Source: Norana najaformis
Taxonomy: Eukaryota; Annelida; Clitellata; Crassiclitellata; Hormogastridae
Length of the DNA stretch: 64,000 bases
NCBI GenBank assembly: GCA_964023275.1
Contig: OZ029916.1
Location: forward strand, 15,605,393-15,669,392
Direction: 5' to 3'
Numbering within the stretch: position 1 is the first letter of the stretch; each line of letters opens with the position of its first letter. This document shows, piece after piece, positions 408-48,708 of this stretch. Under the pieces are notes generated by a model. It had not been told where the DNA came from. It did not search any database and saw nothing but the letters and a program-made list of their open reading frames with translations. The translations under genes and the position numbers were made by a program.

Positions 408-650
408 TGCCCTAGAGGGTGCCATGGGGTTGCATTTGTAACTTCGTTTTGCTTTGCCTCGGCATATGTGCGCGACCGACCATTCCTCTCCCTCGCCACC
501 TTATCCTCCTATTCACAGTGCATGGTAATCAAGCTCCTAATACCTGAGAAGGCAAGGGGTGTTAAGTGGAGCCGTTATGTCGAAAGAAATTCTGTCCTGG
601 TGGGGATTTGAACCTGACTTTCGCCTGACAGTCCAGCATGCCAACCACTA
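408..650 (-). repeat. tRNA-derived SINE, family A, copy 1
   Basis: On the minus strand the head looks like a degenerate tRNA. An A-box-like TGGCATGCTGG is followed about 25 nt later by a perfect B-box, GGTTCAAATCC. The body then runs through CCACTTAACACCCCTTGCC and GAGGATAAGGTGGCGAGGG. The same body is found at 785-985 (minus) and about 42405-42660 (plus), which makes it a dispersed family. It is not a functional tRNA gene because the acceptor stem does not close. Confidence 0.65.
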
Positions 651-784
651 GATATGGTGTACATCTCAGCATTATGAAGATCGGAAAATTGGAAACAGAT
701 TCGTGGTCGGAAATCTATAAAAATTGTTAGGTCGGCAAATAAGAAACAATCGAAAACGTGTAAAATATCAGACCACTATGCAAG

Positions 785-985
785 CTCCGAGAGGAAACCA
801 TAGATCTGAAGTATTAGCGATTTCAGTTTTCTTAGCCTCAGCATGTTGGTGATTGGCCATTCCTCTCTCTCACTGCCTTATCCTCCCATTTACATTGTAT
901 GGTAATTGCATTCCCTGTAACCAAGTTGGATAGGGGGTGCAAGTGGAGGCAAAATCTCAGAAATATCTGCTATGACAGGGATTTA
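785..985 (-). repeat. tRNA-derived SINE, family A, copy 2
   Basis: This copy aligns with 408-650 over the body (GGCCATTCCTCTC, then CCTTATCCTCC, then GGGGTGxAAGTGGAG on the plus strand). It keeps a decayed B-box, GGTTTAAATCC, on the minus strand. The two tandemly placed, same-orientation copies differ at many positions, so they are separate old insertions rather than a recent duplication. Confidence 0.6.
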
Positions 986-1213
986 AACCAGAAGGATGCC
1001 CAAATGGGGCCATACTGTCCATGTATGCAAACAGTTGAGCAGCATACCCCAATGGGGCCTGCAGCCAAAATTTCATACGCCTCATATGGGCTGCCTATAT
1101 GATACTCATAAAGTTGCCCCATTAGAGGCATACTTGGCTTTGGCTTCCACTTTTAATATTGTTTGATTTTCACGTTTCTGATTTCTGACCCTCGTGCTCA
1201 TGGATTTACAAGT

Positions 1214-1312
1214 TTCTTAAGTAAGTAAGTATTCTTTTATCAGTGTGAGTCAAACGCCCAAACTTTACAACAACAACGCACCCATAGCAATATAATAAAT
1301 ATCATGAACAAC
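1214..1312 (-). mobile_element. LINE family F, 3' tail only
   Basis: Reading the minus strand, this is the 3' end of the LINE that lies at 2200-3098 on the plus strand. Both share GTGGGCGTTTG, a block like GCTAATAAAAGATT, and a terminal (CTTA)n tail, seen here as AAGTAAGTAAGT on the plus strand. It is a severely 5'-truncated insertion. Confidence 0.6.
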
Positions 1313-1329
1313 GTAAAATAGAGTCTGAA

Positions 1330-1500
1330 TGACAACTTAATAAAATAGTTTTATTTGCAGCTGTTTCATATTTTCCAACCTTCTTGTAACCGTTTCTGAT
1401 TTTCCAACCATCTTGCAACCGTTTCTGACTTTCTAACCTTCTGGTATGTAAGCTTATGTAATTCCAACCTAGTATGTATCTGTTTCTGTTGCTGGGTTTC
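1330..1500 (-). repeat. Degenerate ~29-bp tandem repeat, right arm of an inverted pair
   Basis: At least three units on the plus strand carry TTTCTGATTTTCCAACC or a near variant, spaced about 29 bp. Reverse-complemented, they match the GGAAAATCAGAAAC units at 240-395 and 660-770. The two arms face each other across the two SINEs, which suggests a foldback-like element later invaded by SINEs. Confidence 0.45.
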
Positions 1501-1795
1501 CCAACATTGCTTCGCATTTTCCTGACTACATGCAACTACGCATGACCTTGCCCAAATTTAGACTGTTATTTAGTCCAAAAATCAGTACACTTGATGCCGT
1601 TACTTCACTATTCGCCGCTGATGAAAATTTCGTGTAGGCAGTTTCGGCTGTGCTACTTTTCTTGAAATTATTACAATCAGGAGGAAACGGGGAAAGTCGA
1701 GACCAAACGCGTGTCATTGACGACCGCACAGGGCAAATGCAGACGATACCCAACACAGAACACCGCATACAGTCAAAGAAAAATCCTGCACTGAC

Positions 1796-1922
1796 CAACT
1801 TTTCCCTTTAGCGGATCGACAACTGGTCCTCCGTGCGACGAGGCGGATCCTCGGACGCTAACAAGCATTCGGCACGAAGCGACGAATCTTCTTCCAGCTA
1901 CGGACCTTAACACTTGCGCCAT
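1796..1922 (-). CDS. First coding exon of a probable mitochondrial protein (partial)
   Basis: On the minus strand an ATG in excellent context (GACAAAATGGCGC) opens a frame of 42 codons beginning MAQVLRSVAGRR, followed by CRMLVSVRGSASSHGG. The N-terminus is rich in Arg, Ser and Ala with no acidic residue for over 30 positions, which is typical of a mitochondrial targeting peptide. A donor-like TTG/GTCAGT ends the exon at 1796. A second in-frame ATG upstream at 1985 (MRGNK) has poorer context and overlaps the likely promoter, so 1922 is preferred. The rest of the gene would lie to the left, in an intron running to or past the window edge. No downstream exon was found in 1-1795. I cannot name the protein; the promoter (see 1963-1990) supports a nuclear-encoded mitochondrial role. 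What would decide it is an EST or protein match. Confidence 0.45.
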
Positions 1923-1962
1923 TTTGTCCCTTCGACTGAGACAGAAACTAGAAGGTGGATTA

Positions 1963-1990
1963 GCGGAAGTCTTATTTCCGCGCATGCGTA
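1963..1990 (-). promoter_or_regulatory. NRF1-like and ETS-like sites upstream of the mitochondrial-type exon
   Basis: CGCGCATGCGTA (1979-1990) matches the NRF1 consensus YGCGCAYGCGCR at 11 of 12 positions. GCGGAAGT (1963-1970) matches an ETS/GABP core. Both sit 40-70 bp upstream of the ATG at 1922, which itself lies in AAAATGGCGC, a YY1-like context. NRF1, ETS and YY1 sites together are typical of promoters of nuclear genes for mitochondrial proteins. The sites are seen; the function is inferred. Confidence 0.45.
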
Positions 1991-2199
1991 TTCAGCACAA
2001 CACGTAGCAACACTTTATAACGCTTCAAGGGCGGATAAAGCAAGTCCAATACACGACGTCGGCTCTAAAGAAATAATTATAGCACTATACTCCGGTGACC
2101 CTAGATGTTTGTGATTCTAGATCTACATGTTCTCTGCAACCAGTTTCAGGCCTGTGAAGGGAATACAATATCCCGCGGGTGAATCTTACTGCTGGGTTG

Positions 2200-3098
2200 G
2201 CTCAACAGATACCGAACCGATATTGCGATATTGTTAGCCTTGAAACTGAATTCGCTAATATTAAGGATTGGAATTCTAACAACAAACAAACACTTATAAT
2301 GTCTCTAAGACCAAAGAAATCATGCTTCACAGACCAAGCCCTAGATTCTTTTCCTTCCCTGGTCCTATTAACGACGTTGAACGGGTTAAACTTGTTAAAC
2401 TGTTGTGTGTTCTGTTTAGAAAAGATTTGAAATTTGATGACCATGTATCTTTTATTACGACAATTTGCAGCGAACGCCTTTACCCACTGAAAATCCTTCT
2501 ATCTCAAGGAATGCCCTTTTATTTTCCAAGCTCTTGTAGTCTCCAGGCTTGTTGATGTCCTTCCATCATGGAGTGGCTTTCTGTCGACTGAATTAGTTGG
2601 GATGATCGATTCCTTTTGACGCCGAGCTGGGCGTCGTGGCCTTTTGAATGGTGACAGTATGAAATTGGGGAAATATTGTGAGAAAATTGATTTGAAATTC
2701 TTTAAAAGCATTGAGGCACGAAATCACTGCCTTCACCAGCTACTTCCAGCAAAGCACTCTCACAGATTCAGCTTGTGGGAGAGGAGTCATACTTTTGAAT
2801 TGCCGAACTTTCACACACTGCTTCATAAAAAAATCCTTCGTCGTTCGCTCACTGTACAAATATAAAAAATCGTAAAATGATGTTTGCTTACCATTCTATC
2901 AATTCTGTTAGATCTTTCCATCACTTGATCTTTCTGCGGCTCTGTGTTATGAACATTTAAACTAGAACTATTTTTGTTGGAGTTTAAAACTGCATTTTTA
3001 CATTGTTGAATGACCTTGTATTATATTGTATGCACTGTAGTTGTAGAGTGTGGGCGTTTGTATAGCGCTAATAAAAGATTGCTTACTTACTTACTTAT
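2200..3098 (+). mobile_element. LINE family F: reverse-transcriptase ORF tail plus 3' UTR with TTAC tail
   Basis: Translations in two frames match the C-terminal part of non-LTR reverse transcriptases. One is RVKLVKLLCVLFRKDLKFDDH near 2360-2440. The other is EARNHCLHQLLP followed by ELPNFHTLLHKKILRRSLTVQI near 2710-2865. Frameshifts and stops separate the pieces, so this is a pseudogene. The UTR carries TATAGCGCTAATAAAAGATT and ends in (CTTA)n at 3081-3098. The 5' part, including the catalytic YADD region, is missing. Confidence 0.7.
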
Positions 3099-3301
3099 TG
3101 CGATATTGCGACATTCAGAATAAACGAAACCGACAACGAAATCGGTATTCAAAAAACTAAAAAATATCGACAAAAACGAAGAAAAAAAAATAAAGAGCAA
3201 CCGAAAAGCTGGTACATATAATTCACAAATCAAAATATCAGTTTACCTTAGGAAGTCATCTTTCGTTCACTGTACATCTTGTAACATTGTTTAAAGTTTT
3301 G

Positions 3302-3311
3302 ATGTTGTTGA

Positions 3312-3358
<47 letters not shown>

Positions 3359-3399
3359 AATTATAATTGTTGTTGTTGTTGTTGTTATTATTATAATTA

Positions 3400-3444
<45 letters not shown>
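3302..3444. repeat. Compound microsatellite (ATG)n-(TTG)n-(ATT)n
   Basis: About 15 ATG units (3312-3357) run into TTG and then ATT units. Poly-Met/Ile/Val open frames on both strands over this tract are translation artefacts. Confidence 0.95.
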
Positions 3445-3449
<5 letters not shown>

Positions 3450-3599
3450 GCCGGGGTCGATTTCATCCGCGAGGTTGGCCGTCGTCTTTCGATCATGAGA
3501 TTGATTTCCTTTATCAGCGCCTCTCTTTCTGTATTCGCTATAAAGTACGCCATCGCATTCCGTGGCACGTTTTCTGATGTTGCTGAGGATGAGGCCTGA

Positions 3600-4055
3600 T
3601 TTCCCAGACACCCTTAAACATCTCCTAGAGTAATTTTTCAGTTCCTGAGGGATTACCGCGGGCAAAAACAACAACAACAATAGCTGCAGCAGCAACAACA
3701 ACAACGACAATGATGATAATAATAACAAAAATAACAATAAAAATAAACAGAAAGACGAATGAGACCAAGAGTTGGTCCAGAAGAGCCAGTCAGACGAACT
3801 CTCGATCCCCAGGGTGAGGGCCGGCCTTAGCCTCAGTGACGCATCAGGCAAAGTATACATTTTGAGGCCCTTCCTTCCCCGACCCCATCTACTTCCAAGC
3901 AGCAGCCGAGGGAACGGGTCTGGTTGGCTGCAAGGTTGGTTGGTCAGCGGCGTCCTGGTCGAGGAACAGGACAAGAACAACTACAGCAGTTCTCCGTTTT
4001 CCACTAGTCTGGCGTCCGATGACCAACTCACCTGATGAGTTGACGAGCGAATATA
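3600..4055. other. Intergenic, with a hAT-like terminal motif and a CAA-rich tract
   Basis: A CAA/AAT-rich tract (3665-3750) precedes CAGGGTGAGGGCCGGCCTTA at about 3809-3828. GGGCCGGCCTTAG resembles hAT transposon ends, and a similar GGGCGGCCCTG occurs at about 24885. No partner terminus was found, so no element is called. Confidence 0.4.
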
Positions 4056-4057
4056 AG

Positions 4058-4450
4058 TACGATACTGATCAGTGATCGTAACCGTAAACTCAAAATTTCT
4101 AAAGCGCCACTTTAAAACTAAGCGCAGGGCACCAGCTTATTCACGATTGCTGCGTTATGTCAGAGGGGTTGTCCAGAGATGCCATGTGAAGAACCAAGTT
4201 CGGTTGCCAGAAGACTAGAGACAGAGGGTCAGAGGAGCTGTTAGGGTGGGTTGTGTTTCAGCAGAGAGAAATGATAAGGGGGCGGATTCGGTGGATTAGG
4301 GTATAGATTTCTCGAAAAGGCGAGGTTTCAGTTTTGAATGGAATACCTGAATAGATAGATGGGCTTGAGACATGATGCTGATGGGTGAACGACGGAAGGG
4401 ATAGTCTAGAGGAACAGAGAATTTGCTAAATTCAGAGGGAGATCGTTCAA
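4058..4450 (-). mobile_element. LINE family B 3' end (minus) abutting an inverted piece
   Basis: The plus strand carries ATCGTAACCGTAAACTC, then AAAGCGCCACTTTAAAA, CCAGCTTATTCACGA and CGGTTGCCAGAAGAC. These match 49690-49890 in the same orientation and 30760-30930 reversed. Read on the minus strand this is the 3' UTR following a CR1/L2-like reverse-transcriptase tail. Confidence 0.6.
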
Positions 4451-4527
4451 GAGTCAAGGTGCAGTGTGGTGTATGGATCGGTTAGAGAACTTCAGATGAG
4501 TAGTCATAGAGGGGCGGGCAAGAGATC

Positions 4528-4615
4528 TTCCTCCTGAATTTCGCAAATTCTCCGTTTCTTTACCTCTCCTGTCGTTCACCCACCATCATCTGTCTCAAGC
4601 TCCTTATTTACACAG
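4528..4615 (+). mobile_element. LINE family B C-terminal fragment, opposite orientation
   Basis: CTTCCTCCTGAATTTCGCAA then CTGTCTCAAGCTCCTT match 30570-30640 on the plus strand, where they encode a LWNDLPSEF-like tail. The minus-oriented counterpart lies just upstream at about 4370-4450, so the two fragments sit tail to tail. Confidence 0.5.
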
Positions 4616-4619
4616 CACT

Positions 4620-4970
4620 AGTGGGGTATTTTAATGTACTTCACGAGTGGTATTAAGTGGCATCAAGCTATCTATTAAACGCCTAGATACATACATACAT
4701 ATATAGGCTTACACATACATAGGCCTACGTACGTACACACTTGAATATATATGATAAACTCTGTTATTCGCCTGTGAAGCAATTAGATGTCATAAAATAC
4801 CGTTGACTAGTTGCACTGATTTGTGCAAGAAGGAAGTAAAATGTACAAATCTGAATATCAAGTCGAAGATCGGTCCCTCGAGCGGACCTTGCGAGATAGC
4901 GACGGCCTGTTTCTTAGCCACAACACATGAGACCAGATGACCAGGCTCCTCATTTGTCGCCTCATCTTGA
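4620..4970. other. AT-rich intergenic DNA with a short (ATAC)n tract
   Basis: An ATAC/ATAT-rich tract lies at 4687-4735 and includes one TAGGCCTA octamer near 4720. No coding or RNA signal is visible. Confidence 0.6.
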
Positions 4971-8894: not shown

Positions 8895-9695
8895 ACAAAA
8901 GGAGCATTATGACAATGGAGCATTATGACAATGGAGCATTATGACAATGGAGCATTATGACAATGGAGCATTATGACAATGGAGCATTATGACAATGGAG
9001 CATTATGACAATGGAGCATTATGACAATGGAGCATCATGACAATGGAGCATCATGACAAAGGAGCATCATGACAATGGAGCATTATGACAATGGAGCATT
9101 ATGACAATGGAGCATTATGACAATGGAGCATTATGACAATGGAGCATTATGACAATGGAGCATTATGACAATGGAGCATCATGACAATGGAGCATCATGA
9201 CAATGGAGCATCATGACAATGGAGCATCATGACAAAGGAGCATTATGACAAAGGAGCATCATGACAAAGGAGCATTATGACAATGGAGCATTATGACAAT
9301 GGAGCATTATGACAAAGGAGAATTATGACAATGGAGCATTCTGACAATGGAGCATTATGACAATGGAGCATCATGACAATGGAGCATCATGACAATGGAG
9401 CATTATGACAATGGAGCATCATGACAATGGAGCATCATGACAATGGAGCATCATGACAAAGGAGCATTATGACAAAGGAGCATCATGACAAAGGAGCATT
9501 ATGACAAAGGAGCATTATGACAATGGAGCATTATGACAATGGAGCATTATGACAATGGAGCATCATGACAATGGAGCATCATGACAATGGAGCATCATGA
9601 CAATGGAGCATCATGACAATGGAGCATTATGACAATGGAGCATTATGACAATGGAGCATTATGACAATGGAACATTATGACAATGGAGCAAGGGC
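8895..9695 (+). repeat. 16-bp satellite array, left arm of a MULE/foldback element
   Basis: About 49 head-to-tail copies of GACAATGGAGCATTAT are present. Variants are confined to two sites, ATTAT/ATCAT and AATGG/AAAGG. A block with three consecutive AAAGG units recurs exactly 224 bp apart (9231 and 9455), so there is a 14-unit higher-order repeat. The period is not a multiple of three and no long frame is maintained. There are no unique spacers, so it is not a CRISPR array. Degenerate inverse copies lie at 10640-10800. Confidence 0.9.
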
Positions 9696-14719: not shown

Positions 14720-15960
14720 AGAATACAATACAGTACAACTAAAATTTGTTAATGCCATCCTTACAAAGTTCAGATGTGCACTTGAAGCCAGGTTATCTGA
14801 AGCTCTAAGAATCATAAGCAGACTGGAAGAGTAAGTTTTCAGGTTAAAGCGAAAGACAGGTTCGGTGGGAGAATTGCGAACATGAGGAAGTAGAGAGTTC
14901 CAGATGGTGGGACCAGCAACTGTGAATGAACCCAGGCCAAAGGCAAGACGTGTACCAGGATCAACTTACTTTCTAGCAGATGCTGAACGAAGTGAGGATC
15001 GGCCTTTAACAGAGTTACAAGGTGTAACCATGGAAGATAAGTACGATGGCAAAAGATTTATACGTGCTTTGTGCATGAAGAGTGTCAGCTTGAAGCGGAT
15101 ACGCTCATATATAGGAAGCCAGTGTACAGAACGAAGAGCAGGTGTGATGTGATCTTGGTATGAGAGTCCGAGACACAGCCTGGTGCAGTATTCTAGTTAG
15201 GGGAAGAAGTGTGCACTCAGGAAGACCATGGAGTATAGAGTTGCAGTATTGGAGTCTTGTAAGAACAAGGCCGTGTATCAGCATTTTCAGTGATGCTGAA
15301 TCTAGAATAGAGCGAAGTTGTCTAATCCTTCTTAGACGAAACAAGCACATTCGAGAAGTTGCAGCTATCTGAGGTTTGAGAGAGAGTTTTGAGTCAACCA
15401 TGATTCCAAGATCCCGGACAGTAGAGGATGGGGAGAGTAAGGAGGAGGAAGTAGGGAGCAGAAGTTCAGTACACTGTAGGAGTTTAGAGGAACGGTCAAA
15501 CCAGATAAGCTCGGATTTGTCAGGATTAAGTCCGAGGCGCATAGACAGACTCCATAGCATAATTTCATCTGTGCAGGCGCGGCCTCTCTTTGTGGCATCT
15601 ATGGCTTCATGTAGCCGGAGGTGTACATAAAGTTGGGTATCATCAGCGTAAAGGTGGATTTCTGCCATGACGAGAGGCAATGGTTGATAGTGCTGAGGTA
15701 TACAGGACGGACAGCAGTGGACCTACGTCGAAACCTTGTGGGACACCAAAGAGCACAGCAGAGATGAATGACGAGAGACAGCCGATGCGAACGTCCTGAG
15801 TACGGTTTGAGAGGTAGGAGACAAATCAATCGAGTATTTTACCCGAGATACCAAAAGACTGTTGCAGGACTTTGAGTAGGATGCAGTAATCTACGCAGTC
15901 AAAAGCAGCACAACATCAAGGACAAGATCACAATAGACTTTCACAATAGCTGAAAATGAC
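14720..15960 (-). mobile_element. LINE family C: degenerate reverse transcriptase with YADD box
   Basis: Minus-strand translations in order from 15960 downward are SYSKSCNSLLVSR; then LPLVMAEIHLYADDTQLYV with the catalytic YADD at about 15640; then LSMRLGLNPDKSELIWF; then STVRDLGIMVDSKLSLKPQI; then LRRIRQLRSILD...LVLTRLQYCNSILHGLP. After further stops come GRSSLRSASARKLVDPGTRL and TVAGPTIWNSL near 14900-15010. This is the thumb and C-terminus of a CR1/L2-type non-LTR retrotransposon, broken by frameshifts. A 191-codon uninterrupted piece (15105-15680) is the best-preserved reverse-transcriptase segment in the window. Confidence 0.85.
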
Positions 15961-43092: not shown

Positions 43093-43320
43093 CAGAGGCG
43101 GATTGGGCTAATGAAAAGTGGCAGCCAAGAACGTTGCGCCCCTCGATTCGCCCCTGCGAACCGAAAATCGACTTCTTTTGCAGCAAACATAATTTCCATG
43201 CATACGACATTTAAGCTCTGGCTTGACGAAGAATAGTGACGGCGCAGAATGTGGGGTTTCCACCCTGTGCGCTCAGAAGTGGGGGGTCTTGGAAGTAACC
43301 TCGTACCTCCGCCGCCTGTG
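43093..43320. mobile_element. Short hAT-like MITE
   Basis: The left end CAGAGGCGGATTGGGC and the right end (reverse complement CACAGGCGGCGGAGGT) form short inverted termini. The flanks GATGAAAG and GATGCATA agree at 5 of 8 positions. The right half resembles 49369-49470 (AGAAGTGGGG..., CCGCCGCCT), so the family is dispersed. Confidence 0.4.
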
Positions 43321-43369
43321 GATGCATATACATTTATAGCCTATAGCAGTTCACTGTTCCTTAACATAG

Positions 43370-44035
43370 GCTCCGACCATATAATGCTGCCTTCAAGACA
43401 TCGAGAATGCTGTTGCTCGTGCTGCACCAAAAACCCCAAACACCATAACATCACTCCTGTTCTTAAATCACTTCACTGGCTTAATATACCTGAACGAATC
43501 GAGTACAAAGTCCTATCACTTACCTACAACACACTTCAATTCTCATATCTTCGTGAGTTATTTACAATCCAACCACTCCGCTCAACCTGTTCCTCTTCTG
43601 CCCTAACACTTCTCCGCCCGTCCGTCACCTCATCCTTAAAATTTGGCAATCGCTCTATAGCCATAGCTGCCCCATCCCTCTGGAATAAACTCCCCCAGCA
43701 CTGCGACATTTATCTGACCCATCATATAAACTCGTCTGTGCTCCACCGCTTGCAATTTCTGCATTGGCCTTTCACTCAAAATTCAAAACATTTCTCGTTC
43801 ACAGATCCTATCCTGACTCCTCTTCTTCCTCTTATCACTCTTTCCGCTCCAATCCCAAACATCACCCACAGTAGCTGCCACGCTGTCTCTGCCTGACTCT
43901 CCCAGGTCATGATCTGGAACCGAACACTTGTGCCTGTCGATTTTGTTTTGACTGAGCGCATGTGAATAAGCTGGTCCCCATAACATGGCTTTCGTTAGGC
44001 GCTGTAGAAATCTCGGGCTTACGATTAGGCCTACG
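43370..44035 (+). mobile_element. LINE family A: C-terminal ORF and full 3' UTR
   Basis: The plus-strand frame reads HHNITPVLKSLHWLNIPERI, EYKVLSLTYNTLQFSYLREL, RSIAIAAPSLWNKLPQHCDI, then HHINSSVLHRLQFLHWPF. This is the canonical 'HITPvL..LHWLP...RI.yK' to 'LWN.LP' end of CR1/L2-type reverse-transcriptase proteins. The UTR ends GGCGCTGTAGAAATCTCGGG CTTACGATTA. It is the best-preserved member of family A in the window and defines the orientation of the others. Confidence 0.85.
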
Positions 44036-44039
44036 TGGA

Positions 44040-44600
44040 GTGCAGTGGTCTGAGTTTTCCAAAACATCTATACAGACAAGCACTGCATCTCAAAGGTGGA
44101 TCCGGGTTGCAAACCGGCCAAGGCCCCCATTTAATTTGTGGGAGCACGTTACCGACATGGCCCCCTAACTGATTTGGAAGATCGTACAAAAATGGTCGAG
44201 TCCCGTGTGTTTCTGTTGCCATGAGTTGAAAATACTAATCGAGAGTTGCTTTGCACTGTGTGGCTGTACACGAGCATGCAATGCTATGCATACACACTTG
44301 GTTAATGCATTAGCAGAGAGATTTGTTCTTGTCCAGTGCGTGTTGCGTTCAGCTTGGCTTTTGCTTGATGGTTTGATTATTGCTCAAGTGAGGTAATGTC
44401 TGGTTTCATATTTTCCAACCGAAGGCTGCTATACGCAGTTTATTCGCCATAAATGTGCGAGCTTCTCGCCGCGTGCTTCGCCCAGGGCATGCTTCATTTC
44501 CATCTTCATAGGTTTTTCAGAGCAGGCTTTTACTGCCGAGTGCTTTTCCAGTTGATGGCCTTCGCCTCTAAGTCATGATGAACCACTGAGGGCCATTCAT
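44040..44600. other. Intergenic, weak tRNA-like motif
   Basis: GTGCAGTGGTCTGAG and GGGTTGCAAACC (44040-44115) could be a SINE head abutting the LINE tail, but no second copy was found. Nothing else is seen. Confidence 0.3.
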
Positions 44601-44601
44601 A

Positions 44602-46421
44602 GGGTCATAAGGGGGAAGATGGACCCCGGGGTAAGATGGACCCTCAATGCAAAACCCATCAAAACGTACATTTCTTAATGTCCATCTTACCCCGTAACGG
44701 GGGCAAGATGGACATTATTTATCGACGCGTTATTAAAACATGCAAAGTCGGGTACCAGTCTACCGGAAAGGGCGTGGCGTATCGATGATCAACAGCTGTG
44801 CGGAAGAAAGTGTTTTTCGGCGAAAGTAAAATAAAAAACTTAAATAAACGGCTAAGGAGACTGTGTGGACAGTAAGTATCCTTCGCCTATAAGTAGTATT
44901 TTATTTAATAGACATATATATTAGCTTGTTATGTAGCGTATTAAAACATAGGCTTTGTGGTCGCATATACTGTAACAGCTATCTGATACCGCAGGGTAGT
45001 GTTGTCTGTCCATCTTACCCCTACACGAAAGTTTATCACCCGGTTTATGTTTCACAACAGATAACCCAAAGAGTGTTATTTACATTAACTGTAAGTAGTT
45101 ATTTTTCTGGGAGTTCATATTGCATACTACTATGTAGCAGTTCACAGTTTATTATCACTGCAGAATAAGTGCCCATCTTACCCCATGAATGTGATACGGT
45201 ACTGTGGACTATGTTTGGTTAACTTAGGCCTGTGTTTTATGCAGATGCCGCGACAGACAGTTTCAGTCTCAGGTTCAGCCCACTGGCATGATCACTGGTG
45301 AGCAAGCTGAATCTGATGAACCAGGTCAGTCAGCTGAAGTGAACCAAATTAGACAGCTTCAGTCTGATGCACAGATTCTATCAATCGTGACCACTAGTGA
45401 AAAATCTGACTTTGATGGACCACCTGAATCAACTGCAACTGACAGCGGACAACGTCATTCTGATGGACAAGATCAGTCAGCTGGAGTGTCTGAAGGTGAT
45501 GGAAATGCATCAAAAAGGATCTTCATTCCATCAAAATAAACAGATTTGAAGTATTGAGGCCCCTGCCTAAGAAAGTCTTCAGTGACAATAAAGGAAAACG
45601 AAAAAGCCGTGCTACAAGTTCTCGTGTGTTGACGTCACAAAAGCACCTTACTGATTTAGAAAAGGAGTTGTGCTTTCATGAAGATAAGCCTAAGAAAAGA
45701 ACGTTGGACTTGCAGTTCAAAGTCACAGAACAAAAGAGAGTTTGTCTTGATTCTGGATCTAAAAAGAACCACAAGAAAAAGAAGCTGACATGCCGAGAGG
45801 ATAAACCAAGACGCCGCAGCATTGACTCTAAGAAGAAAATGAAGAAGAAAAAGGCAAACATCCATCTAGGAAAGAAAAGTAAGGCTAATAGGCCTACAGT
45901 GTGTTGTGCAGGATGTGGAGAGATCGAAGACGAATCAGTTGAAGATTGGATTGCCTGCATCAAATGTCAGACGTGGTACGAGTTGTCATGTGCCGGTGTA
46001 CTCGGAAAGCCCAAGCACATCCAGGATTCATTTATGTGCAGAGATTGTGAACAGTGACATTAAAGGCAATAGGCCTGTCATGATCACATGCAGTTTCTTA
46101 GCATTCTTAGTTTCTTAGCATAGGCCCTTAAAATTTTAAAGTAACTGTAGTACTATAGATGACCAGATCTTGACTGTCCGTCTTACCCCTACATTATGTC
46201 CGTCTTACCCCAGTTCGCAGGACAAGATGGACCCCTGAGGTCATACTTCAATATAGCCTATAGGACAGAAATATTATAAGCAGAGAAGACAGTTTACTGC
46301 TGATTAACAATACTGAAGTGCTTGAATATTAAAAATGTTAAAAAACATGTTCAGAATCTGATAATTATGGTCATTATTGATCAAACAGTGCTTAAAGGGT
46401 CCATCTTACCCCTTTGCACCC
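44602..46421 (+). mobile_element. Pogo-like DNA transposon, internally deleted
   Basis: The element starts GGGTCATAAGGGGGAAGATG and ends with the complement of GGGTGCAAAGGGGTAAGATG. These 25-bp inverted termini agree at 21 of 25 positions, and TA flanks both ends (44600-44601, 46422-46423), as expected for the pogo/Tc1 group. A probable intron runs from the donor ACA/GTAAGT (44872) to the acceptor TTTTATGCAG (45244). The exon encodes only the C-terminal tail of a pogo-type transposase. The DNA-binding HTH and the DDE core are absent. A 14-bp motif, GTCCATCTTACCCC, recurs ten times in both orientations. Confidence 0.85.
45245..46057 (+). pseudogene. Pogo-type transposase C-terminal exon with PHD-like zinc finger
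   Basis: After the acceptor the frame reads CRDRQFQSQVQPTGMITGEQ and continues as a Gln/Ser/Asp-rich linker to a stop at 45537. The next frame, overlapping from about 45510, reads INRFEVLRPLPKKVF, a Lys/Arg-rich stretch, then LTSQKHLTDLEKE. 'RPLPK..K....R...S..LT..' is characteristic of the tail of invertebrate pogo/DDE_1 transposases. A frameshift near the A-run at 45512-45516 separates the two. The end holds a PHD-like finger: CAGC, WIACIKC, WYELSC and CRDC; the usual His after WY is Glu here. The stop is at 46055-46057. A short basic region (KKNHKKKK and similar) may be a nuclear-localisation signal. Confidence 0.75.
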
Positions 46422-46516
46422 TATAAATAATAAGCACGTGGTCCATGTATCTGCAGATTGTCTTTGCGATCTTTAAGACACTTCTAGGATCTTCTCAGCT
46501 ATTTATCCATTCATGT

Positions 46517-46703: not shown

Positions 46704-48708
46704 AGTAATGCCGGGTAGATGTCCCTACAGTGCGACAGGCAAAGTACTTCCAGGTAGATGGCCACAGAGCTGGACAGGCAAAGTACTTCCAGGTAGATGG
46801 CCACAGAGCTGGACAGGCAAACTACTTCCAGGTAGATGGCCATAGAGTTGAACAGGCAAACTACTTCCAGGTAGATGGCCATAGAGTTGAACAGGCAAAC
46901 TACTTCCAGGTAGATGGCCATAGAGTTGAACAGGCAAACTACTTCCAGGTAGATGGCCCTAGAGTTGAACAGGCAAAGTACTTCCAGGTAGATGGCCCTA
47001 GAGTTGAACAGGCAAAGTACTTCCAGGTAGATGGCCCTAGAGTTGAACAGGCAAACTAATTCCAGGTAGATGGCCATAGAGTTGAACAGGCAAACTACTT
47101 CCAGGTAGATGGCCATAGAGTTGAACAGGCAAACTACTTCCAGGTAGATGGCCATAGAGTTGAACAGGCAAAGTACTTCCAGGTAGATGGCCCTAGAGTT
47201 GAACAGGCAAACTACTTCCAGGTAGATGGCCCTAGAGTTGAACAGGCAAACTACTTCCAGGTAGATGGCCATAGAGTTGAACAGGCAAACTACTTCCAGG
47301 TAGATGGCCATAGAGTTGAACAGGCAAACTACTTCCAGGTAGATGGCCCTAGAGTTGAACAGGCAAACTACTTCCAGGTAGATGGCCCTAGAGTTGAACA
47401 GGCAAAGTACTTCCAGGTAGATGGCCCTAGAGTTGAACAGGCAAACTAATTCCAGGTAGATGGCCATAGAGTTGAACAGGCAAACTACTTCCAGGTAGAT
47501 GGCCATAGAGTTGAACAGGCAAACTACTTCCAGGTAGATGGCCATAATGCCGGGTAGATGTCCCTAGAGTTGAACAGGCAAAGTACTTCCAGGTAGATGG
47601 CCACAGAGTTGAACAGGCAAAGTACTTCCAGGTAGATGGCCACAGAGTTGAACAGGCAAACTACTTCCAGGTAGATGGCCATAGAGTTGAACAGGCAAAG
47701 TACTTCCAGGTAGATGGCCACAGAGCTGGACAGGCAAAGTACTTCCAGGTAGATGGCCATAGAGTTGAACAGGCAAACTACTTCCAGGTAGATGGCCATA
47801 GAGTTGAACAGGCAAAGTACTTCCAGGTAGATGGCCACAGAGTTGAACAGGCAAAGTACTTCCAGGTAGATGGCCACAGAGTTGAACAGGCAAAGTACTT
47901 CCAGGTAGATGGCCATAGAGTTGAACAGGCAAAGTACTTCCAGGTAGATGGCCATAGAGTTGAACAGGCAAAGTACTTCCAGGTAGATGGCCATAGAGTT
48001 GAACAGGCAAAGTACTTCCAGGTAGATGGCCACAGAGTTGAACAGGCAAAGTACTTCCAGGTAGATGGCCATAGAGTTGAACAGGCAAACTACTTCCAGG
48101 TAGATGGCCCTAGAGTTGAACAGGCAAACTACTTCCAGGTAGATGGCCCTAGAGTTGAACAGGCAAACTACTTCCAGGTAGATGGCCATAGAGTTGAACA
48201 GGCAAACTACTTCCAGGTAGATGGCCCTAGAGTTGAACAGGCAAAGTACTTCCAGGTAGATGGCCCTAGAGTTGAACAGGCAAAGTACTTCCAGGTAGAT
48301 GGCCACAGAGTTGAACAGGCAAAGTACTTCCAGGTAGATGGCCACAGAGCTGGACAGGCAAAGTACTTCCAGGTAGATGGCCATAGAGTTGAACAGGCAA
48401 AGTACTTCCAGGTAGATGGCCATAGAGTTGAACAGGCAAAGTACTTCCAGGTAGATGGCCATAGAGTTGAACAGGCAAAGTACTTCCAGGTAGATGGCCC
48501 TAGAGTTGAACAGGCAAAGTACTTCCAGGTAGATGGCCATAGAGTTGAACAGGCAAAGTACTTCCAGGTAGATGGCCCTAGAGTTGAACAGGCAAACTAC
48601 TTCCAGGTAGATGGCCCTAGAGTTGAACAGGCAAACTACTTCCAGGTAGATGGCCACAGAGCTGGACAGGCAAAGTACTTCCAGGTAGATGACTCTAGAG
48701 TTGGATAT
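46704..48708. repeat. 39-bp minisatellite, about 51 units
   Basis: The unit contains AGGCAAAGTACTTCCAGGTA followed by GATGGCCATAGAGTTGAAC. Variation is limited to AAAC/AAAG, CCAT/CCAC/CCCT and GTTGAAC/GCTGGAC. The block TAATTCC (replacing TACTTCC) recurs exactly 390 bp apart (47055 and 47445), giving a 10-unit higher-order repeat. A divergent unit AATGCCGGGTAGATGTCCCT starts the array (46706) and recurs at 47546, splitting it into two blocks of about 0.84 and 1.16 kb. Because 39 is divisible by three, several frames stay open on both strands. The 292- and 396-codon minus frames (repeat MAIYLEVVCLFNS) have no splice or start support and are probably not genes. Confidence 0.95.

Follow-up and report, generated by a model that had tools for sequence, protein, structure and literature searches.

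A probable deletion derivative of a pogo-like transposon with ten 14-bp sites and a PHD-like tail in the genome of Norana najaformis

The present analysis concerns a stretch of 64,000 nucleotides from the annelid Norana najaformis (contig OZ029916.1 of assembly GCA_964023275.1, positions 15,605,393 to 15,669,392), referred to here as the window, and a single TA-flanked element of 1820 bp which occupies positions 44602–46421 of it. The two ends of this element pair as an imperfect inverted repeat (I1; 84% over 32 nt, flank included; the ends proper measure 25 bp). It holds ten copies of a 14-bp site, a 5' region with a putative intron, a transposase start codon and an 804-bp coding tail with a PHD-like finger, and neither a helix-turn-helix (HTH) nor a DDE_1 domain is present in it. 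An initial annotation made from the sequence had likewise seen one pogo-like element here, and the inverted-repeat ends with TA on both sides bear this out. We regard the element as very probably a non-autonomous pogo-like DNA transposon, a deletion derivative that has spread recently. The terminal inverted repeats of the pogo superfamily measure 40 bp or less in most families, according to excerpts from PMC7386202, and the 25-bp ends fall within this range.

The origin of the present form can be read from a comparison with other loci. L042 and L044 are intact on the 5' side, where the same splice acceptor is followed by ATGCCGCGA and then by the HTH exon (MPRSYV...), and L039 is intact on the 3' side, where the end of the DDE region continues into the tail. 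The window copy joins these two sides at a CGA common to both (Table 1), and the start codon which precedes the junction is therefore that of the transposase; in L033 (73% alike over the aligned parts) the HTH begins at the same place. The junction puts the loss of both domains between the start codon and the tail. The description of the element as reduced to its PHD-finger exon consequently has to be corrected, since the element also retained its 5' region with the putative intron and the start codon of the transposase.

A blastn comparison of the element with 41 loci revealed at least nine copies that are unbroken across this common deletion junction, namely the window copy and those at C6:25.10 Mb, C7:25.06 Mb, C17:0.07 Mb, C6:35.57 Mb, C2:48.86 Mb, C8:25.37 Mb, C4:8.53 Mb and C12:22.29 Mb. 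They differ from each other by 1.05% on average (range 0.28–1.74%, 36 pairs). When their flanks (293–1399 bases per side) were compared, only 28-base matches were found between copies, plus one longer match, which is inverted and covers 139 bases at 82% between the right flanks of L013 and L017. Because the flanks share only short or low-identity matches, the nine copies are, as far as sequence comparison can tell, separate insertions at unrelated places. The same deletion is thus carried by nine dispersed copies, six of them with both ends. As the initial annotation had led one to expect, the termini recur at TA elsewhere: the left-hand TA is present in 8 of the 9 copies (L014 lacks one terminal G there), and TA is found at both ends in four of the six copies that retain the right end, the window copy included.

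Some of these copies have peculiar flanks, and in three of the nine the right flank opens with a repeat of the left one. In L010 and L012, both of which have lost the right end, the right flank opens with 15 and 9 bases of the left flank, respectively, joined at microhomologies of 3 and 8 bases (GAT and TAGTACTA). A switch of template to an empty homologue while the gap was being repaired would account for both cases and perhaps also for L020, in which the right end is complete and the right flank opens with 53 bases of the left one. In L011 the two sides have stretches that resemble each other, though diverged (89% over 120). Finally, a fragment at C7:13.295 Mb (L045/L052) is 100% identical to the copy at C8:25.37 Mb over 222 and 348 bases and has another internal deletion besides; the event is recent.

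All ten 14-bp sites that had been listed for the element are present, with coordinates that were right within 2 bases; four are exact and five have one mismatch, while the one at 46219, which had been counted among the copies with one mismatch at most, has three. With up to one mismatch allowed, the element holds nine sites and the 62,180 bases of the window outside it hold none; with up to three, the window holds 13 against 2.89 expected (maximum 7 in 100 shuffles). The near-palindrome of two head-on sites noted at 44680–44713 was recovered as an inverted repeat (44676–44717, 18 nt, 94%, 6-nt spacer). In the genome (608 Mb, 17 contigs) the exact 14-mer has 47 matches, compared to 4 for a backward-read control, and 45 of them lie in copies or relatives of the window element, so that the motif is specific to the family and not common outside it; the other two (L047 and L049) show no similarity to the element at E 1e-4. 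A one-base G variant of the site is matched exactly at 51 places (control 1); the family assignment covered all of these except C12:6419339, and the 50 covered lie in family loci.

The sites also appear to be constrained. Across 12 diverged relatives, cells identical to the window make up 87.1% of 742 in the site columns and 75.3% of 4566 in the other non-coding columns; when the site set was rotated, 2 of 1008 rotations reached this difference. Eight of the ten sites are better conserved than their 14-base flanks. Pogo transposases bind short sites in their own terminal repeats. Because the site columns are conserved and sites sit in the terminal repeats, transposase binding is the best reading of the motif, and the earlier proposal that the dispersed copies bind the transposase is supported to the extent that they are family-specific and conserved as such sites would be.

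The tail protein had 45 matches in the genome, and the relatives include transposases with the same type of tail. In detail, three domains of L041 (HTH_psq, HTH_Tnp_Tc5 and DDE_1) score above the curated cut-offs, and an alignment of its C-terminal frame with the L039 frame extends across the PHD (27% in 367 columns, E 8e-13). L060, L061 and L062 have open frames of 712, 738 and 724 amino acids with HTH, DDE and a PHD-type finger tail, about 51% identical to L041. In L060, 35 residues separate the D of LDGH from the D of QPLD, which we take to be the last two catalytic residues. Pogo-like transposase frames with a PHD tail, either open (L060–L062) or broken (L059), have a peptide repeated in tandem between the DDE and the tail, with a number of copies that varies by locus. 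In addition, a relative on C8 (L043 joined to the adjoining L019) has the left end of the family followed by HTH, DDE and tail, all degenerate and full of stops.

In the tail of the window element all seven Cys ligands of a C4HC3 finger are present, and they are invariant in 10 of 10 aligned rows. The His ligand between Cys 4 and Cys 5 is missing; its position is occupied by Glu in all three rows of the element's own family (window, L039 and L015) and by His in the seven rows of relatives. A structure prediction for the PHD region from the 10-row alignment had a mean pLDDT (predicted local distance difference test) of 62, too low for use. It is conceivable, if unlikely, that in the full transposase this tail served not as a histone reader but as a second module by which the 14-bp sites were bound. 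The family of the window element does combine a PHD-like finger with a repeated end motif. The piggyBac transposons, which target TTAA instead of the TA found here, belong to another superfamily. Their transposase shares the combination, its C-terminal cysteine-rich domain having a PHD-like fold and binding a repeated end motif, as given in parts of PMC8086355. However, DNA binding by the present finger would be argued from this analogy, the HTH region by itself may suffice for binding, and the loci of the PHD-tailed relatives L041 and L060–L062 lack the site. A DNA-binding tail would in any case supplement the explanation of the element as a deletion derivative and not displace it.

A quite different suggestion sees in the element the carrier of a separate PHD-finger protein, expressed from the tail by way of the 44872/45244 splice and acting as a chromatin reader or as a repressor of transposition. 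A 276-amino-acid tail frame is indeed open, without stops, in four of the nine copies, all of them other than the window copy, no stop arose among the 45 base changes where about 2.3 would be expected, and the nearest solved relatives of the tail by sequence are PHD fingers of chromatin proteins (in a profile of which one row, L062, was miscut). However, in the window copy the tail frame stops at 45537–45539, the PHD lies in another frame, and the reading frame opened by the ATG at 45245 has 18 codons and is not in phase with the tail; the His ligand, as mentioned above, has become Glu. The changes in the 276-amino-acid frame of the nine copies and L016 (34 non-synonymous, 11 synonymous, 0 stop) are close to those expected without selection (about 71%, 24% and 5%, or roughly 32, 11 and 2.3), so the tail frame appears to evolve neutrally with no sign of upkeep, and open frames in four of nine copies are no surprise for young copies at 1% divergence. 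We therefore consider a separate protein very improbable.

A separate DDE-less pogo family was also seen (L040, L063–L068, L070 and L071), in which a frame of 285–305 amino acids joins the HTH region directly to the PHD tail. Ten candidate places besides L040 were compared, of which L069 and L072 did not belong; the nine copies are 96.5–98.5% alike, and the last Cys pair of the finger is retained within this frame in L040, L063 and L065 only. The changes among them (71 non-synonymous, 25 synonymous, 2 stop) look neutral too, and the reading as a kept protein was dropped both for this family and for the tail of the window element.

The sites in the middle of the element find an explanation in the C8 relative, which is about 3.1 kb long and 80% alike over the left 643 positions. 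With up to three mismatches its sites lie at 290, 307, 358, 378, 697, 859, 3163, 3185 and 3206, that is, nine of the ten sites of the window element in the same order and with nearly the same spacing, the rightmost one being lost. The 2.3 kb between 873 and 3163 contain no site at this threshold and three at 4 mismatches. Judging from this relative, the sites of the parent were subterminal, within stretches of about 0.6 kb at the left end and 0.25 kb at the right end, and this layout is older than the deletion; the apparent middle position came about because the deletion brought the two subterminal groups together. The alternative of growth by internal duplication, which the initial annotation had entertained, can draw on a family member that does show internal tandem growth (17 copies of a 247-bp unit at C12:26.316–26.320 Mb), but for the window copy it is not needed and already contradicted, as the junction is a deletion and the six left and three right sites match the order and near spacing of the C8 relative with its 2.3-kb gap, which leaves it hardly credible.

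By comparison, the parent of the deletion derivative was of a type about 3 kb long, with a left end with six sites, a 5' region with a putative intron, HTH, DDE, a PHD-like tail and a right end with four sites. One internal deletion at a microhomology of 3 bp took out the DNA-binding and catalytic domains, presumably through aborted gap repair. A transposase from an intact family member would bind, or would recently have bound, the 14-bp sites via its bipartite HTH, cut at the ends and re-insert the element at TA, the leftover tail presumably travelling along as passenger sequence.

Several observations weigh against this account. Among the loci examined there was no intact autonomous member that carries these sites, and in the closest longer copy (L039 on C1) nothing of the DDE region is left but its end. 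The loci of L041 and L060–L062 hold no 14-bp site even at two mismatches, and because of this they show the type of gene but are probably not the enzymes that move the window element. L014 and L020, two of the six copies that retain the right end, lack the right-hand TA, the sites at 46198 and 46399 are not conserved above their own flanks, and the 12 relatives of the conservation test share ancestry and are not independent. Finally, the count of nine copies is a lower bound, as the loci were drawn from the 14-mer and tail-protein searches.

Table 1. Features of the pogo-like element and its target sites (positions in the window)
Feature	Position	Strand	Basis or remark
TA target site, left	44600..44601	.	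read in sequence; TA at the equivalent place in 8/9 copies
Left terminal inverted repeat, includes site 1	44602..44626	+	pairs with 46397–46421 (I1)
Site 1	44611..44624	-	1 mismatch; inner part of left terminal repeat
Site 2	44628..44641	-	exact
Site 3, left arm of head-on palindrome	44680..44693	+	exact
Site 4, right arm of palindrome	44700..44713	-	1 mismatch
Likely 5' untranslated exon, start approximate	44714..44871	+	suggested by its retention in L051 too
Putative 5' intron GTAAGT...TGCAG, contains sites 5 and 6	44872..45244	+	boundaries read in sequence, same in L051
Site 5, inside putative intron	45008..45021	+	exact
Site 6, inside putative intron	45171..45184	+	1 mismatch
Transposase start codon and next two codons (M-P-R)	45245..45253	+	L042 and L044 begin MPRSYV..., L033 MSRSYV... 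at the same place
Internal deletion junction, 3-bp microhomology CGA	45251..45253	.	window versus L042/L044 (5') and L039 (3')
Transposase gene tail	45254..46057	+	open reading frames 45228–45539 and 45500–46057 in different frames; break between about 45500 and 45537
PHD-like finger, Glu replacing the His ligand	45905..46048	+	PF00628, E 0.0051 (under curated cut-off); BPTF PHD, E 2.9e-4; alignment
Site 7	46176..46189	+	1 mismatch
Site 8	46198..46211	+	1 mismatch
Site 9	46219..46232	-	3 mismatches; position retained in C8 relative
Site 10, within right terminal repeat (inner part)	46399..46412	+	exact
Right terminal inverted repeat	46397..46421	-	partner of 44602–44626 (I1)
TA target site, right	46422..46423	.	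read in sequence and copy comparison

The element is ordinary in kind, a further member of the known class of non-autonomous pogo-like deletion derivatives. Internally deleted non-autonomous DNA transposons are familiar from Ds, KP and similar elements, and like these the window element kept its ends, lost its enzyme by an internal deletion at a short microhomology and spread to several places; nothing is different in principle. Miniature inverted-repeat transposable elements (MITEs) are usually under 0.6 kb. With its length and its coding remnant the element does not belong to them; it is longer than a typical MITE and has a tail frame that is open, but apparently unselected, in four of nine copies. 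The system for comparison is the pogo superfamily (IS630-Tc1-mariner; Tigger, pogoR, Passer, Fot and Lemi), from which, as described, the family of the window element differs in its C-terminal PHD-like finger, and the window element itself in an array of ten sites that extends 0.6 kb into the left end and in being without HTH and DDE. Architectures that combine a pogo transposase with a PHD do occur in protein databases. Among the papers listed by the literature searches, a PHD-tailed pogo transposase was described in none of the titles and openings of abstracts, which cannot prove absence, and the word PHD is absent from the main text of PMC7386202 and PMC7325037. Viral contigs searched with the tail protein gave 372 pattern matches, none of them a confirmed relative.

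The tandem array mentioned above lies in L042 (C12:26315800-26320900, positions 461–4646; 90% matches between units). Its unit corresponds to the right subterminal region, at about element positions 1407–1666, and with up to two mismatches allowed two 14-bp sites are found in 15 of the 17 units and one in the other two. The array is situated between two inverted right ends and adjoins the HTH exon. It contains 30 of the 51 exact G-variant sites, the rest being single or paired, and as the exact G-variant search revealed no second array, the idea of a genome-wide satellite was rejected. The 14-bp motif is unlike the CENP-B box. The CENP-B box itself resembles pogo terminal repeats (excerpts from PMC6947457), and in CENP-B box satellites, as in the L042 array, a pogo-type end motif is tandemly repeated; here there is one array at one place. 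It might be imagined that the end motif of this PHD-tailed pogo lineage functions as a multi-site binding array able to escape as a satellite, that the C12 array is a newborn counterpart of CENP-B box satellites on its way from transposon end to tandem repeat, and that the PHD-like finger helps to hold the transposase on the motif or on chromatin, although we regard this as distinctly doubtful.

Other features of the window include a 39-bp minisatellite of about 51 copies (46714–48703), which begins 0.3 kb past the element and shows no visible relation to it, and a 16-bp minisatellite of 49 copies with 96% matches (8901–9690). Frames at 15108–15722 and 43240–43893 resemble, by eye, remnants of the long interspersed nuclear element type and have no Pfam match. 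Pfam searches with 10 of the 55 window frames of at least 100 amino acids gave one weak, uninformative match below threshold (DUF6044), and scans of the window for transfer RNAs and Rfam families returned none.

In this one case the layout of the parent can be seen together with the precise deletion junction and the dispersal of the deleted form. The 14-bp site, with ten natural positions and a measurable constraint, is suited to a binding study of PHD-tailed pogo transposases, and the C12 array, a natural case in which tandem repeats grew from a pogo-type end, bears on the origin of satellites of the CENP-B type.
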